From a virus: a stretch of DNA of 21,772 nucleotides. The notes under the pieces were generated by a model. That model searched no databases, was not told where the DNA came from, and was given only the letters and a program-made list of their open reading frames with translations. Positions 91 through 7,910 of the stretch are shown here, in pieces (positions within the stretch are counted from its first letter, which is position 1; every line of letters begins with the position of its first letter). Position numbers and translations under genes: made by a program. The stretch is from positions 1 to 21,772 of the IMG/VR virus record IMGVR_UViG_3300028909_000075, one strand, 5' to 3'.

Positions 91-95
91 TATTT

Positions 96-136
96 AGCCG
101 TTGTTGCATCTTCATGGTGTGATAACGGCTTTTTTT
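96..136 (+). terminator. Intrinsic terminator after the leftmost partial gene
   Basis: AGCCGTT (96-102) pairs with AACGGCT (124-130). The stem continues inward through several G-U pairs to a small loop, and a T tract follows at 130-136. The T tract is only on the + strand side, so it serves the rightward gene. It overlaps the stop codon of the leftward HEPN-like gene. Confidence 0.75.
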
Positions 137-1019
137 ATTTATGCCAATCAAATGTTGAAGCAAGCGTATGAATACACACGAAGAGACGTACCGCATCATT
201 TTCCTTCCATGTATCAGCAGATATACGTCCATGCAGAATATACTGCCGATTTATATTTTGGGGTTTCTTAGTTGGATCTGAAAAATTGCCGCCACTATAT
301 AATTGTTTTATAAATTTTGAGATTGATAGCCACACACATATAGGAATAAAATTTTTACCAAATTTATTTTTGCAATTATTATGAATATTTTTTGAGATAG
401 ATGTAATATTAGTTGTATTTTGTTCGTTTCTAGATTTATCATATTTTAAAATAGAATCTTCGAATCCTTTACTCACGATGAGTCCTTCTATTATGGAAAT
501 TAAAGCAGGAATGGTGACAATATAATGTCCATTTTTAAAAACAGCTATACAATCGATTAATAAAGTTTTCCATTGTGATAGATTTGGGTTATTTTGTAGA
601 TCGTCAAAAATTATATTTAATTCGTAATTGTTATCTTTGATAAAGAAATCATAAAGAGCGTTATCTATTTTAAGGAGATTTGTGGAATATCCAACAATAT
701 CATCTATTTCTGTTGGGTTTAAAACCATTGGTAATACCCAGCCAGCTTTTGGCAACAGTGTAGCATATCTTTCCGAACTTTCTTGTACTTTTTTTATTCC
801 TTTATCTAAACTAATTTTAAATTGAAATAGAACTGGTCTTATATTAAGGGCGAGACTTTGTAGAGTTGTGGTTACATGATAAAAAGGTTGGAATGTTTCT
901 TTTATAGCAGATATTTGATTTTGCAAAGTACACATAGTGTTACGGACAGAAAATAGTGGCAGAGGTATTCTTTTTTTATATTTTTGGCTGGATAATTTTT
1001 TCAATAATCTTTTTTTCAT
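135..1019 (-). CDS. HEPN-like protein with R-x4-H motif (candidate RNase / abortive-infection type)
   Basis: Leftward gene of 294 residues. The start was set at the ATG at 1019-1017, because an AAGGCGGTG-type ribosome binding site lies about 6 bases upstream; an upstream in-frame start 13 codons earlier lacks one. Near the C-terminus, R258-QYIL-H263-G gives the R-x4-H signature of HEPN domains, followed by a helix ending in STFDWHK. Before it comes a helical stretch with IPALISIIEGLI (about 165-180), as in Apea-like HEPN proteins of phages and genomic islands. HEPN proteins are commonly metal-independent RNases in toxin-antitoxin and abortive-infection systems, but no nuclease activity can be shown from sequence. 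It runs against the phage genes with its own promoter, so it is probably accessory cargo. It is AT-rich like its surroundings. No partner antitoxin is adjacent. Confidence 0.7.
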   Translation of the reverse strand: MKKRLLKKLSSQKYKKRIPLPLFSVRNTMCTLQNQISAIKETFQPFYHVTTTLQSLALNIRPVLFQFKISLDKGIKKVQESSERYATLLPKAGWVLPMVLNPTEIDDIVGYSTNLLKIDNALYDFFIKDNNYELNIIFDDLQNNPNLSQWKTLLIDCIAVFKNGHYIVTIPALISIIEGLIVSKGFEDSILKYDKSRNEQNTTNITSISKNIHNNCKNKFGKNFIPICVWLSISKFIKQLYSGGNFSDPTKKPQNINRQYILHGRISADTWKENDAVRLFVCIHTLASTFDWHK

Positions 1020-1042
1020 ATAATGCACCGCCTTCGTTAATA

Positions 1043-1071
1043 ATATTATGATAAACATTTAGAAAAAGCAA
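1043..1071 (-). promoter_or_regulatory. Promoter for the leftward HEPN-like gene
   Basis: Read on the minus strand, TTGCTT (1071-1066) and TAATAT (1048-1043) are separated by exactly 17 bases and lie just upstream of the ribosome binding site and ATG at 1019. It is a good match to a housekeeping sigma promoter. Confidence 0.6.
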
Positions 1072-1221
1072 TGCGATTTAGTTTTAAATTAAAGCTTATG
1101 TAACTCGTTTCGGTGAAATAAAAGAAACACTTAAATCTATCAACAGTATCAAAGCGGAATTTTCGGCTTTGACCAATTAACAGAAATCAATGAAGGGCAG
1201 ATCATAACGTCAAGTAGGCTT

Positions 1222-1617
1222 GTGGCTGAGAAATTTAATAAACTTCATAAGCATGTTCTAGAAACTATTGATGAAATCCTGAAAACCGAAAATTCGGCTT
1301 TCTCATTTTTCTACAAATCAACTTATAAAGTTGAAGGCAACAATAAGACTTATCCTCAGTATCTTATGAACCGTGATGGTTTTAGCTTGTTAGCTATGGG
1401 ATTCACCGGCAAGAAAGCGCTTGCGTGGAAATTTAAATTTATCAAAGCTTTTAATGATATGGAAGCGGCGCTTAAAGCTAATGCCCAAACACCAGTTGAT
1501 CAAATTGTTGATACATTTAATTTACCAACAACATTGAAAGATGCTTATCTTCGTCTAGCAGCGTGTGAAGATGAAAAAACTTTATTACTATTATCAGAAT
1601 ATTTAGTTATACTTTAA
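1222..1617 (+). CDS. rha: Rha-family phage regulatory protein, truncated (possible pseudogene)
   Basis: The 131-residue reading frame carries the Rha (pRha) core: EKFNKLHKHVL near the start, then SFFYKSTY, the segment NRDGFSLLAMGFTGKKAL (about 50-67), and the WKFKFIKAFNDME helix. Rha proteins are phage regulators that act in lysogeny control. The only usable start is GTG 1222. In-frame homologous-looking sequence (LTEINEGQ, then IITSSRLVAEKF) continues upstream from about 1174 with no ATG/GTG/TTG before the stop at 1132, and no ribosome binding site precedes the GTG. The C-terminal half seen in full-length Rha/KilAC proteins is absent, because the frame stops soon after LPTTLKDAYLRLA. Both ends therefore look lost. 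It may be a remnant or a short form; a second, complete antirepressor is present at 4868. Confidence 0.65.
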   Translation: MAEKFNKLHKHVLETIDEILKTENSAFSFFYKSTYKVEGNNKTYPQYLMNRDGFSLLAMGFTGKKALAWKFKFIKAFNDMEAALKANAQTPVDQIVDTFNLPTTLKDAYLRLAACEDEKTLLLLSEYLVIL

Positions 1618-1823
1618 AGGTATAAGGTCTGAGCATATTTGATTTATAAAAGATATTAATAAATAAGATTCTTTTTTACTAAATAATAATATTAAAACTC
1701 AGTCCGATTATTATATTGTAATCCAGACGTCCCGTGGTGGTCTGTGAAGAAGATTTAGCTTATATATGGCTTCTTGTATATATTGAAAATATTAAACGCA
1801 CCAGCGAAGTGTGAGAAGTGGGG

Positions 1824-1853
1824 TTGACTGGACGAAATGCAAAAGTGTATAGT
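1824..1853 (+). promoter_or_regulatory. Promoter reading into the gene-free structured region
   Basis: TTGACT (1824-1829) and TATAGT (1848-1853) with an 18-base spacer. Transcription would begin near 1859-1861, and no gene starts downstream before the terminator-like hairpin at 2079-2129. This suggests a non-coding transcript. Confidence 0.55.
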
Positions 1854-1857
1854 AAAT

Positions 1858-2129
1858 TTAGGGAAACAAATCAAATGTTTGCAAAAGGTATATTGCCAGC
1901 CCGTACATTTATACTTATGCGAATGGCAAAGTTTAATCTACTACAGGGCAGACTAAAAAATCGTCATTAATTATAAATCTTTAATTCACGCAAGTTTATG
2001 AGTTTAAAGTTCCCTAAGGTTATTTTATATATTTAACTTTTCGGGAGATCATTTTAATAAAAAAATTACCTCAGGGCACTTTGCGTAGCGTGGCCGCTCC
2101 GGCGGACATGCAAAGCCGTTCTTTTTTTT
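1858..2129 (+). ncRNA. Candidate structured small RNA (about 270 nt)
   Basis: The predicted transcript starts beside TTAGGGAA (1858-1865), which is perfectly complementary to TTCCCTAA (2010-2017) and would tie the 5' end to a point about 150 bases away. Inside, TTGCCA (1893-1898) pairs with TGGCAA (1924-1929). GCCCGTA in its loop (1899-1905) can pair with TACAGGGC (1942-1949, one bulged base), which would make an H-type pseudoknot. It ends in a GC-rich hairpin and T8 tract at 2079-2129. I do not recognise an RNA family. The pairings are visible in the sequence; that the RNA exists is inference. Confidence 0.35.
2079..2129 (+). terminator. GC-rich hairpin with T8 tract (intrinsic terminator)
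   Basis: CTTTGC (2079-2084) pairs with GCAAAG (2110-2115). An inner GCCG-ctc-CGGC stem strengthens it, and eight Ts lie at 2122-2129. The T tract runs directly into the first copy of the 48-bp repeat. Confidence 0.55.
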
Positions 2130-2171
2130 AAGATCCTAGAAATAACTTTTTAATTAGAAACAGCTCTTGCG
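2124..2171 (+). repeat. 48-bp direct repeat, copy 1
   Basis: Identical over 48 bases to 2336-2383. It begins with a T tract followed by AAGATCCTAG and ends in CAGCTCTTGCG. Downstream, GCGGA (2170-2174) can pair with TCCGC further on, and GCTTTT-agtt-AAAAAGC forms a hairpin, so the repeat seems to head a structured unit of roughly 105 bases. Confidence 0.85.
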
Positions 2172-2258
2172 GAAAGCTATATAGTTATTATACATACAGG
2201 TGTCCGCATGCTTTTAGTTAAAAAGCTAGTTAGGACGAGGGATTATAGTCATTTCAAC

Positions 2259-2316
2259 AGGTACGCTTTTCCGGAAAATAGGGGGGGCTTATTCCGGTAA
2301 ATCGTACCTTGTTTTT
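2259..2316 (+). terminator. Strong two-part hairpin with T tract
   Basis: AGGTACG (2259-2265) pairs with CGTACCT (2303-2309). A symmetric 5x5 internal loop leads to CCGGAA (2271-2276) pairing with TTCCGG (2292-2297). The loop carries seven consecutive Gs, and TTGTTTTT follows. It lies between the two copies of the 48-bp repeat and fits a terminator; a protein-binding or origin hairpin is possible. Confidence 0.5.
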
Positions 2317-2335
2317 CGCTATAACGTATAAATGA

Positions 2336-2383
2336 TTTTTTAAGATCCTAGAAATAACTTTTTAATTAGAAACAGCTCTTGCG
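2336..2383 (+). repeat. 48-bp direct repeat, copy 2
   Basis: Perfect copy of 2124-2171, offset by 212 bases. It is followed by a comparable arrangement: TGCG-AGA / TCT-CGCA arms around an AT-rich loop, then a GCTT-tttt-AAGC mini-hairpin. A third partial copy (TTTTTTAAG with CCTAGA, lacking two bases) lies at 2434-2448. Confidence 0.85.
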
Positions 2384-2484
2384 CAGAATTGTATAATAAT
2401 AAACCTATAGTAACTCTACGCAGATTTTAATGCTTTTTTAAGCCTAGATCATTGATTTATATAGAGTTAAGGCAGTTTTAGGTA

Positions 2485-2502
2485 TGTCCAGCCCACTGGA
2501 CA
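2485..2502. promoter_or_regulatory. 18-bp palindrome, operator-like site 1
   Basis: TGTCCAG-CCCA-CTGGACA is a perfect 7-4-7 inverted repeat. Its centre is 32 bp (about three helical turns) from the second site, as expected for two repressor dimers on the same DNA face. The binding protein is unknown; the phage repressor or the replication protein are candidates. Confidence 0.6.
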
Positions 2503-2516
2503 TTATAAGGTAAAAA

Positions 2517-2534
2517 TGTTCAGTCAACTGGACA
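2517..2534. promoter_or_regulatory. 18-bp palindrome, operator-like site 2
   Basis: TGTTCAG-TCAA-CTGGACA has the same 7-4-7 architecture as site 1, and its right half-site is identical. The ten bases AACTGGACAT ending this site recur at 7253-7262, at the start of the HigB-type toxin gene. Sites 1 and 2 lie about 150 bp upstream of the replication gene start. Confidence 0.6.
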
Positions 2535-2685
2535 TGGAAAACGACTTAAATTTATGATAACCATGCATTACGATAAAAAATAAGTATGGTTAATTAAAGG
2601 CAGGTGATATTATATAAGACCAGTAATAGAGTAATGACTCCAAGATAAGATAATTTGTATCAAAATCTAAAGGAGTGTTACTATT

Positions 2686-4389
2686 ATGTACAATAAAAAA
2701 ATTACAAGTAAATTTGATAAAAATGAGGTTGAAATCGGAGTTGTAACACGCACGACGACTACACAGGTCGGGCAAGAGGTTTATACCAAACTCCACGAAA
2801 CGCGATACTGGAGAGAGGAAAAAGGGCGTTATTATCCATGGGGTCAAAAAACACAAATACATCTATATGTAGACAATAATATTATATCGGTACTAGACGA
2901 TCGCTATGCAGATGCTGGTCACCTTTTAGCACTTTTGTATAATATGGATAATAATAATATGATTATTCTTCGTGATGGGCATACAAAGCACGCTTATCCA
3001 GCTGCGACAAGGGAAGATGTCTATAAATTGGCTGGATACAGCAACAAAACAGCAGGACTTGCCTTTTTTCGATTACTATTAGACAAGGATGTTATTAAAA
3101 TCATTACTGTAAATGATAATAAAGGTAGCAAAAATTATAATCGTTATTATATTAATCCAATATTTACGATGCGTGACCGTGGCATTACACTAGATTTATA
3201 CAAATTATTTCGGGAGTCAATTGATCCATATTTGACTGATTTTGCACGACAAGATTTGCAGAAATTGATATATCGCGAAATTACCGGAGATCATGAAGAA
3301 AATATAGAAATAGACAACACCAACGGAGGTTACACAGCAGTATCCAATACTGATAAGCAGGCAGTTTTTAATGAATATATTTTACATGATGAAGCTCCTA
3401 AAACCTATCAAAAAATTGGAAAAGGAATGATTGCTCATCCAATGACTGATGATAACGATACTTATTTTATAGTGAATCAGACGCTCGGATATAAGACTAC
3501 AAAACCGGCTGATATCGATATCAAGGGTTTTACTGCTTGGTTTGTTGACATCGATGCTGGCAAGGGCGAGGACGGTAAATATTTTTCACTGGATGAAGTT
3601 TCGACCCGAAAAGTTAAAATGATGCATGTTATAAATGCTCTACCAACGCCTACCGCAATTGTAGATACGAGAAATGGATATCACGTATACTATGCTTGCT
3701 ATGGAGATATTACGACGCAAGCATGGAATACACTAGAGGATAAATTATTTAATATCGCCCAAATAGCAGATCCGGCCGCAACAGATGTATCGAGATTATT
3801 ACGTTTACCGAATAGTAAATGGATAAAAACCAATACAGGTCTAGCTCCTTATGACGTTACAATAAAACAAGCCAATCGACAAGCTTATGACCTAGACTCA
3901 TTTAATAAACAGCTTGATGAGGTTCAGACGTCAGTACAGGCGACCGCAGAAGATTATCTGTCTACTTATCCTATAACGAAAGTTTCCAAGGCTCAGACAG
4001 CCGCTGGTACGAAATCGAATGAAGACCAAACTGAACGGATACAAGCAATTATAAATTTATCCACCGAAACTTTTGAAACAGCGCTCGTTACTTTTACAGA
4101 TAATATTAATGAGTACTTGCACCAAATTAATCTAGCAGAATTTTTACAAATTGAAAATCCGTCAAGTTTTGTATGTGTCCTTCACGACGACCACAGCCCA
4201 TCAGCAACGATTTACGCTAACGAAACCGGTTATAGATACTATTGTGGATCTTCTGCATGTGTAGGGGACGGTGAAGGCAAGGGTCGCGACATAATTGATG
4301 TTGTTATGATCTTGGCTGATTGTAAATATCAACAGGCTGTTAATTATTTAAGTACGGTTTATAGCATAAAGCAACAAGCCACAGCATAA
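2686..4389 (+). CDS. Replication protein: winged-helix-like N-terminus, AEP primase, C-terminal CHC2-type zinc finger
   Basis: 567 residues; ATG 2686 follows AAGGAG by 10 bases. Residues about 65-195 resemble phage/plasmid initiator winged-helix regions (helical EDVYKLAGYSNKTAGLAFFR, then YYINPIFTM and LYKLFRESIDPYL). Residues about 245-400 carry the archaeo-eukaryotic primase signature: VDID with D288 and D290 for metal binding, TAIVDTRNGYHVYY with N330, G331 and H333, and D367 in ATDVSRLLRLPNSKW. Residues about 493-545 form a DnaG/CHC2-like zinc finger (C497-x2-H500, then C520-x4-C525, followed by RDIIDVVM). It probably recognises the origin and makes primers. No helicase gene is seen nearby. 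The zinc finger lies after the primase core, the reverse of DnaG. A small unknown gene follows and shares its transcript. Confidence 0.8.
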   Translation: MYNKKITSKFDKNEVEIGVVTRTTTTQVGQEVYTKLHETRYWREEKGRYYPWGQKTQIHLYVDNNIISVLDDRYADAGHLLALLYNMDNNNMIILRDGHTKHAYPAATREDVYKLAGYSNKTAGLAFFRLLLDKDVIKIITVNDNKGSKNYNRYYINPIFTMRDRGITLDLYKLFRESIDPYLTDFARQDLQKLIYREITGDHEENIEIDNTNGGYTAVSNTDKQAVFNEYILHDEAPKTYQKIGKGMIAHPMTDDNDTYFIVNQTLGYKTTKPADIDIKGFTAWFVDIDAGKGEDGKYFSLDEVSTRKVKMMHVINALPTPTAIVDTRNGYHVYYACYGDITTQAWNTLEDKLFNIAQIADPAATDVSRLLRLPNSKWIKTNTGLAPYDVTIKQANRQAYDLDSFNKQLDEVQTSVQATAEDYLSTYPITKVSKAQTAAGTKSNEDQTERIQAIINLSTETFETALVTFTDNINEYLHQINLAEFLQIENPSSFVCVLHDDHSPSATIYANETGYRYYCGSSACVGDGEGKGRDIIDVVMILADCKYQQAVNYLSTVYSIKQQATA

Positions 4390-4759: not shown

Positions 4760-4891
4760 AATCATTTCGTTTGTCAAAATAGTGTAAAAACATATCTGTC
4801 TGAGTAATACATTTATGTAATGTTTGCAGCGGCAGCGTTAACAAAATAGACAAAGGTGGTCATTATTATGACAATGACAAACGAAATGATT
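4760..4891 (+). repeat. 17-bp perfect inverted repeat spanning the antirepressor start
   Basis: The 17 bases at 4760-4776 (AATCATTTCGTTTGTCA) are the exact reverse complement of 4875-4891, 98 bases apart. The right arm covers codons 3-8 of the antirepressor gene and the left arm is in its 5' leader. In a transcript carrying both arms, the stem would fold over the initiation region. It could also be two oppositely oriented protein-binding sites. Confidence 0.75.
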
Positions 4892-7254: not shown

Positions 7255-7593
7255 CTGGACATAAAAAGAATGTTTATTAATACTAAGGTTTTTGATAAAG
7301 AATGCAAAAAACTTGACTTTACCGATAGCGATTTACGAAGTCTCGAAAATGAAATACTAGAAAACCCTAATGTTGGTAGAGTTGTACAGGGGACAGGACG
7401 CTTACGGAAGCTGCGATTTGCACCTGATTATACAGGGAAAAGCGGTGGATATAGGATATATTATGTTAATTTTACAAAACAAGAAATAGTATATTTTATA
7501 TTAATATATTCTAAAACGGATAAGGAAAATATAACTAAAGAAGAAAGGAATTCATTGAAACAATTGGTTGATCAACTGGAAGCTGAATTGTAA
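7255..7593 (+). CDS. higB: RelE/HigB-type toxin (type II toxin-antitoxin), probable CTG start
   Basis: RelE-fold mRNA interferase family member, expected to cut mRNA at the ribosome. Recognisable elements are FINTKVFDKECKKL near the start, GTGRLRKLRFA, GKSGGYRIYYV, and YFILIYSKTDKENIT, with the conserved basic and tyrosine residues of HigB2-like toxins. The first ATG is at 7270 (107 residues), but AGGAGGT (7240-7246) is 23 bases from it. An in-frame CTG at 7255 is eight bases from this site and adds LDIKR, restoring the (M)xIKRxFI beginning typical of the family. I therefore prefer CTG (112 residues). The antitoxin gene follows after 20 bases. Promoter and operator lie directly upstream. Confidence 0.85.
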   Translation: MDIKRMFINTKVFDKECKKLDFTDSDLRSLENEILENPNVGRVVQGTGRLRKLRFAPDYTGKSGGYRIYYVNFTKQEIVYFILIYSKTDKENITKEERNSLKQLVDQLEAEL

Positions 7594-7613
7594 ATATAAA
7601 TGAGGTGAATAGA

Positions 7614-7910
7614 ATGTCTGAACTATTTGATTTGCTGTCAGAGTCTTTGAATGAGGCTATAACGGATGCTAAAAGCGAAAAAAAGACTTTAAGGCGCCAT
7701 ACGCGTATGATAAAAATTGAACCAATACCAGATTATACTGCTGATGAGATTAAAGTAATAAGGGATAAAGTGGGTTTTACACAAAAATTACTGGCCGCCT
7801 TTTTAGGGGTATCACCAAAAACGATAGAGGCATGGGAATCGGGGAAAAACAAACCTAATGGGCCATCATTACGATTGCTTAGTTTAATAAAAAACCATCA
7901 GATAGCCTAA
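7614..7910 (+). CDS. higA: HigA-type XRE-family antitoxin
   Basis: 98 residues. ATG 7614 is preferred because GAGGTG lies six bases upstream; a GTG nine bases earlier is part of that site. The C-terminal half is a helix-turn-helix (about 48-90: ADEIKVIRDKVGFTQKLLAA, then FLGVSPKTIEAWESGKNKP), typical of HigA2-like antitoxins that follow their toxin gene. The N-terminal 45 residues are a charged helix that would bind and neutralise the toxin. It should repress its own promoter, probably through the palindrome at 7209-7223. Toxin-first gene order fits the HigBA arrangement. Confidence 0.9.
   Translation: MSELFDLLSESLNEAITDAKSEKKTLRRHTRMIKIEPIPDYTADEIKVIRDKVGFTQKLLAAFLGVSPKTIEAWESGKNKPNGPSLRLLSLIKNHQIA

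Follow-up and report, generated by a model that had tools for sequence, protein, structure and literature searches.

The stretch from 1618 to 2685 of a 21.8-kb IMG/VR virus record (IMGVR_UViG_3300028909_000075, herein the window) reads best, on balance, as the control region of a phage-plasmid-type replication module, in which an operator-controlled rep gene would be combined with a small regulatory RNA. The stretch holds several elements and not one RNA. Their layout, the conservation of a promoter and a 3' module, and the recurrence of a palindrome pair before rep are supported by the sequence; transcription, protein binding and a regulatory role of the RNA are what we infer. The gene order of the window is siphophage-type and ordinary (Rha, replication gene, AntA antirepressor, terminase), and it includes Rep and structural genes. 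An earlier reading of the same DNA, made from the sequence alone, had described 1618-2685 as free of any credible gene, and this is borne out: no open reading frame of at least 60 aa starts and ends within it, and the longest lying wholly inside is 50 aa.

Window-type Rep proteins are rare, and two relatives were found. One is a second IMG/VR record (IMGVR_UViG_3300030294_000132, herein L007), with a terminase 95% and a Rep 54% identical to those of the window. The other is pSRC5 (locus L003), a 35-kb circular plasmid of Selenomonas ruminantium that encodes ParA and has a terminase gene, and whose Rep is 33% identical to the window Rep over 94%. A phage-plasmid combines phage structural genes and plasmid genes for both replication and partition on one element, as pSRC5 does (ParA, Rep, terminase). 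No par genes were seen in the window contig, itself truncated, and because of this we infer a plasmid lifestyle for the window phage from the relative alone. No further Rep relative with an upstream region emerged from repeated scans of viral and genome collections, and a Rep search of genome contigs gave no confirmed match. Two contigs, 3300037279_000120 and 3300029985_000328, match portions of the window at 100% identity, but neither covers 1618-2685. The short open stretch at 1818-1970 (50 aa) is unsupported as a gene in L007.

Rfam covariance models run over the whole window gave 0 matches at the gathering score (GOLLD, ROOL, C4 antisense RNA and others), and the best sub-threshold matches at a relaxed E-value were chance. 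Searches with blastn against phages and plasmids returned no meaningful match to the DNA. A direct-repeat 30-mer and two hairpin patterns run against IMG/VR found only L007 and one chance match (L025, inside a coding gene). The features discussed below are as follows.

1824-1853, plus strand: promoter P1, TTGACT-18-TATAGT (pattern scan; conserved in L007)
1860-2126, plus strand: predicted small non-coding RNA of ~267 nt, bounded by promoter and 3' module, both conserved
2012-2026, plus strand: 5' arm (B) of a helix, CCCTAAGGTTATTTT, pairing with 2062-2076; CCCCGAGGTT in L007
2062-2076, plus strand: 3' arm (C) of the helix, AAAATTACCTCAGGG, pairing with 2012-2026; AACCTTGGGG in L007
2079-2129, plus strand: GC hairpin with a GTAG-containing internal loop, then GTTC and T8; conserved (L007 1185-1232)
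2124-2188, plus strand: copy 1 of a 65-bp direct repeat (repeat search; first 48 bp identical to copy 2)
2260-2308, plus strand: strong hairpin GGTACG..CGTACC followed by TTGTTTTT (z -3.56); possible second terminator
2336-2400, plus strand: copy 2 of the 65-bp direct repeat (89%)
2484-2503, no strand assigned: palindrome 1 of an operator-type pair, ATGTCCAGcccaCTGGACAT (repeat search; the only such pair in the window)
2516-2535, no strand assigned: palindrome 2, ATGTTCAGtcaaCTGGACAT, centred 32 bp from palindrome 1
2529-2558, plus strand: promoter-like TGGACA-18-TATGAT, putative rep promoter (pattern scan, 10/12)
2686-4389, plus strand: replication gene; its N-terminal domain also occurs as a stand-alone protein in pSRC5; weak RepB-type primase and weak CHC2-type zinc matches

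Promoter P1 had been proposed before and proves to be conserved. With its surroundings it forms the best-conserved ungapped 37-mer between the upstream stretch and L007 (27 of 37 positions; L007 991-1027), a level reached by 0/500 shuffles. The consensus of the two sequences is TTGACT-18-TATRGT with the same 18-nt spacer, and order and polarity are kept in L007. Promoter-like matches in the region are no commoner than in shuffles, so P1 draws its weight from conservation and not from match counts.

The 3' module was recovered by local alignment of window 1985-2124 with L007 1085-1230, with a score of 82, the best of 300 shuffles reaching 58. Its 15-bp helix (2012-2026/2062-2076) contains one compensated pair relative to L007, and the pair probability of B with C is 0.57-0.71 in the window and 0.97-1.0 in L007. 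The GC hairpin ending in T8 that the sequence-only reading had pointed out is present (core 2079-2115; T8 at 2122-2129) and its sequence is conserved in L007 (GCGTAGYGTGGYCGC..GCG..CATGCRAAGCCGTTCTTT; described for both phages as GCGTAGYGTGGYCGC..GCATGCRAAG), again with one compensated pair, making two in the whole module (U-A to C-G and C-G to U-A). In the module, 91% of cells are paired, compared with 32-51% when the partners are slid; covariation power is low with two sequences, 247/500 column shuffles doing as well, and the covariation is support, not proof. The module is structured in both phages (z -1.9 and -3.4). We regard 2079-2129 as a probable intrinsic terminator, an imperfect one given the bases that separate hairpin and T-run, and one that a strict terminator scan passed over. 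A covariance model built from the two sequences (R1) scores strongly at those two loci only, with weaker minus-strand matches at both because the helix is near-palindromic.

A discrete RNA of ~270 nt (1860-2126) is likely, because promoter and 3' module are both conserved in L007, where the counterpart spans ~206 nt (1027-1232); that it represents a real small RNA gene we consider probable. The conservation among relatives on which the earlier reading had made such an RNA depend is found in L007, the RNA being known from only two genomes, the window and L007 (n = 2 sequences). The minimum free energy of the whole RNA lies weakly below that of shuffles (z -1.5). Its 5' half shows no structure in either phage (z -0.5 and 0.1) and is not conserved between them. 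Complementarity to gene starts revealed no antisense target common to both phages: for the antA leader, 0/100 shuffles were as good in the window and 26/100 in L007, and the rep leader did no better than shuffles in either.

The interior pairings suggested by the sequence-only reading fail; its main part stands (the gene-free stretch, the lack of an Rfam match and the RNA ends, now seen to be conserved). The segments TTAGGGAA (1858-1865) and TTCCCTAA (2010-2017) are exactly complementary, as claimed, but their pairing has an ensemble probability of only ~0.04, competes with the 2012-2026/2062-2076 helix and has no counterpart of its first segment (A) seen in L007. Among dinucleotide shuffles of the 270 nt, 11% offer an exact 8-base match that begins within the first 12 nt, and 1.4% do so with the start fixed. 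The H-type pseudoknot at 1893-1949 (TTGCCA/TGGCAA plus GCCC/GGGC) can be drawn, and is at chance level: a stricter pseudoknot of 6+6 bp occurs in 170/200 shuffles of the 270-nt stretch.

The term "regulatory" remains the best description of the region, mainly by virtue of the paired palindromes at the rep promoter, which the first reading had missed. The -35 element of TGGACA-18-TATGAT sits within palindrome 2. Upstream of rep, L007 carries ACTATTCCACAGAATAG twice, 33 bp apart (1417/1450), and pSRC5 carries TTGTTCAGttgCTGAACAT twice, also 33 bp apart (L003 4521/4554), so that the same architecture recurs before rep in three genomes with different palindrome sequences. Shuffles yield such a pair in 5/200, 0/200 and 1/200 cases; elsewhere in the window, and across the L007/L024 sequence searched for the relative, no further pair turned up. 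The palindromes are well-supported as a putative operator pair at the rep control region, and divergence of sequence at fixed spacing would be expected of immunity or auto-repression sites. They resemble paired phage operators and Rep auto-repression sites in that two similar palindromes, spaced by some three helical turns, overlap a promoter, and differ from those systems in that the palindrome sequence changes in each relative and the binding protein here is putative.

A second pair in pSRC5 (33.5 bp, L003 4931-4980) lies just upstream of a small gene (L003 5056-5457) for a paralogue of the Rep N-terminal domain that stands alone; because of this position, it suggests, without proving, that Rep-type domains bind the palindromes. 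A phage repressor encoded beyond the left end of the contig is an alternative binder. The RepB_primase-like match in the replication gene falls below the curated cut-off, and an AlphaFold model of Rep made from three sequences has a mean pLDDT of 38.

We propose that promoter P1 would transcribe a short non-coding RNA (~1860-2126) ending at the conserved two-part 3' module, a long helix followed by the GC hairpin and U-tract. Independently, the palindromes, 32 bp apart, would be bound by a dimeric protein, either a phage repressor or the Rep N-terminal domain, and would when bound repress the overlapping promoter at palindrome 2, rep being transcribed from its own operator-controlled promoter. 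The small RNA would act as a regulator of replication or immunity, either in trans, with the variable 5' half as the effector, or as a leader terminated upstream of rep. Should RNA and operator pair work in this way, phage-plasmids akin to the Selenomonas element would offer a small control region amenable to testing, and an operator pair with fixed spacing and changing sequence would offer a concrete handle on superinfection immunity groups. A bolder proposal, which we think quite unlikely, is a new regulatory-RNA family whose conserved promoter and helix-plus-GTAG-hairpin 3' module carry a fast-diverging 5' specificity segment alongside the diverging operators; if true, family and operators would form a two-layer (RNA and protein) immunity or copy-control system of Negativicutes-type phages.

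Control of phage-plasmid replication and immunity is best worked out in the enterobacterial models phage P1, N15 and P4. Small RNAs complementary to gene leaders are established in the control regions of phages P1, P7, N15, P4 and phiR73, and for ICP1 an abundant non-coding RNA in a 1-kb orf-less region is reported (PMC7567579). The region is of this general kind, without demonstrated family membership. Like the P1/P7/N15/P4/phiR73 RNAs (CI RNA, CA RNA, c4 RNA), the predicted transcript would be a small non-coding RNA in the replication or immunity control region of a temperate phage or phage-plasmid; it shows no sequence relation to them and no consistent leader complementarity. Unlike them, it has its own conserved promoter and putative terminator, and no Rfam match at the gathering score. 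The gene-free stretch of ~1 kb recalls the large phage RNAs GOLLD and ROOL, which occupy up to a kilobase without genes in phage genomes (PMC7567579, PMC12286853). Unlike these, the window has no Rfam match, and the suggestion of a kilobase-scale structured phage RNA gives way to ~120 nt at the 3' end of the transcript, the only part both structured and conserved.

Other accounts of the same elements can be weighed against this one. P1 could be the promoter of a rep operon and the RNA a leader deciding whether transcription stops at 2126 or continues toward rep, through alternative pairings of 1858-1865 with 2010-2017, of 2012-2026 with 2062-2076, and of 2073-2077 with the 3' flank of the terminator, in the manner of the rep attenuators of Gram-positive plasmids or of the P4 replication leader. 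In attenuators of the pT181 and pIP501 types, rep is preceded by an antisense-controlled structured leader that can pair in alternative ways and contains a terminator. The window likewise has, upstream of rep and on its strand, a potential leader with a terminator and competing pairings; segment C is common to the B:C helix and the extended terminator hairpin, and in the folding model the 1858-1865/2010-2017 pairing, when forced, brings back the extended terminator at a cost of 2.7 kcal/mol. Unlike in the plasmids, the terminator does not stand just before rep: 560 nt lie between 2126 and the gene, and they include a further terminator-like hairpin as well as a second promoter. Nor is the first pairing conserved in L007, where segment A has no counterpart, and a scan covering the sigma-70 type only found no minus-strand promoter at 8/12 in 1858-2300 for a countertranscript. 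Such a switch is possible in the window on the model, without support in L007, and we judge this account of the region unlikely. Similar doubt attaches to the conserved parts being a promoter and terminator that insulate neighbouring genes, or the remnant of a lost small gene, with an inert RNA. Only promoter and terminator are conserved, while the interior shares neither sequence nor length (148 nt before the 3' module in the window vs 72 nt in L007), and the absence of window 135-1617 from L007 suggests a cargo site next to them. A lone terminator, however, needs neither the conserved 15-bp helix nor the GTAG internal loop, and the T-run gap would make this hairpin an imperfect one.

The first reading had also entertained an origin-associated RNA. 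It had missed both the 65-bp direct repeat and the hairpin at 2255-2320, which has z -3.6 on the plus strand and folds better on the minus strand (z -5.45). With these strong hairpins and the repeat, next to a gene with the sub-threshold RepB_primase-like domain, the region might be a replication origin whose hairpins are recognised by a Rep primase, like the ssi sites of RSF1010. We consider this very improbable: the region contains no iterons (tandem direct repeats of 15-22 bp near rep), no DnaA box and no distinct AT-rich or skew signal, and the 65-bp repeat is not seen in L007.

In pSRC5, a structured, terminator-ended stretch upstream of rep (L003 4660-4785; z -3.6) lies between the two palindrome pairs, an order relative to the palindromes that differs from the window. 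It may be a functional counterpart of the window RNA; as a homologue it was rejected by model R1. A 41-aa hydrophobic peptide with the appearance of a type I toxin is also encoded in pSRC5 (L003 4252-4377), its gene spanned by an inverted repeat (4268-4281/4379-4392).

L007 contains three to four variants of the GC hairpin (GTAG/GGAG + stem + ATGYGAAG) within 340 bp (932-953, 1061-1082, 1195-1216, 1240-1266) and none elsewhere in the sequence searched; two have the opposite orientation to the rest, and the cluster recalls REP elements. A REP/RAYT-like dispersed repeat (GTAG/GGAG + hairpin) was not demonstrable from three to four hairpins in L007 932-1266 and one in the window.

Window 135-1617 carries a minus-strand 307-aa ORF (phrog_30981) and the Rha gene, and L007 is without such genes. 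A left-end terminator hairpin, AGCCGTTGTTGCATC..GATAACGGCTTTTTTT, lies at window 95-137; L007 has a similar one at ~765-800, and there the small RNA begins within ~200 nt after it, so window 135-1617 looks like an insertion or cargo site. Downstream of rep, a perfect 17-bp inverted repeat (AATCATTTCGTTTGTCA at 4760-4776, TGACAAACGAAATGATT at 4875-4891), absent from L007, has its arms on either side of the ribosome-binding site that serves the AntA antirepressor gene; its 3' arm sits in the first antA codons, and the antA mRNA could fold its start into a 98-nt loop through it. Further on, the window encodes a HigB/HigA-like toxin-antitoxin pair (7270-7910), the second protein of which is HTH_3.
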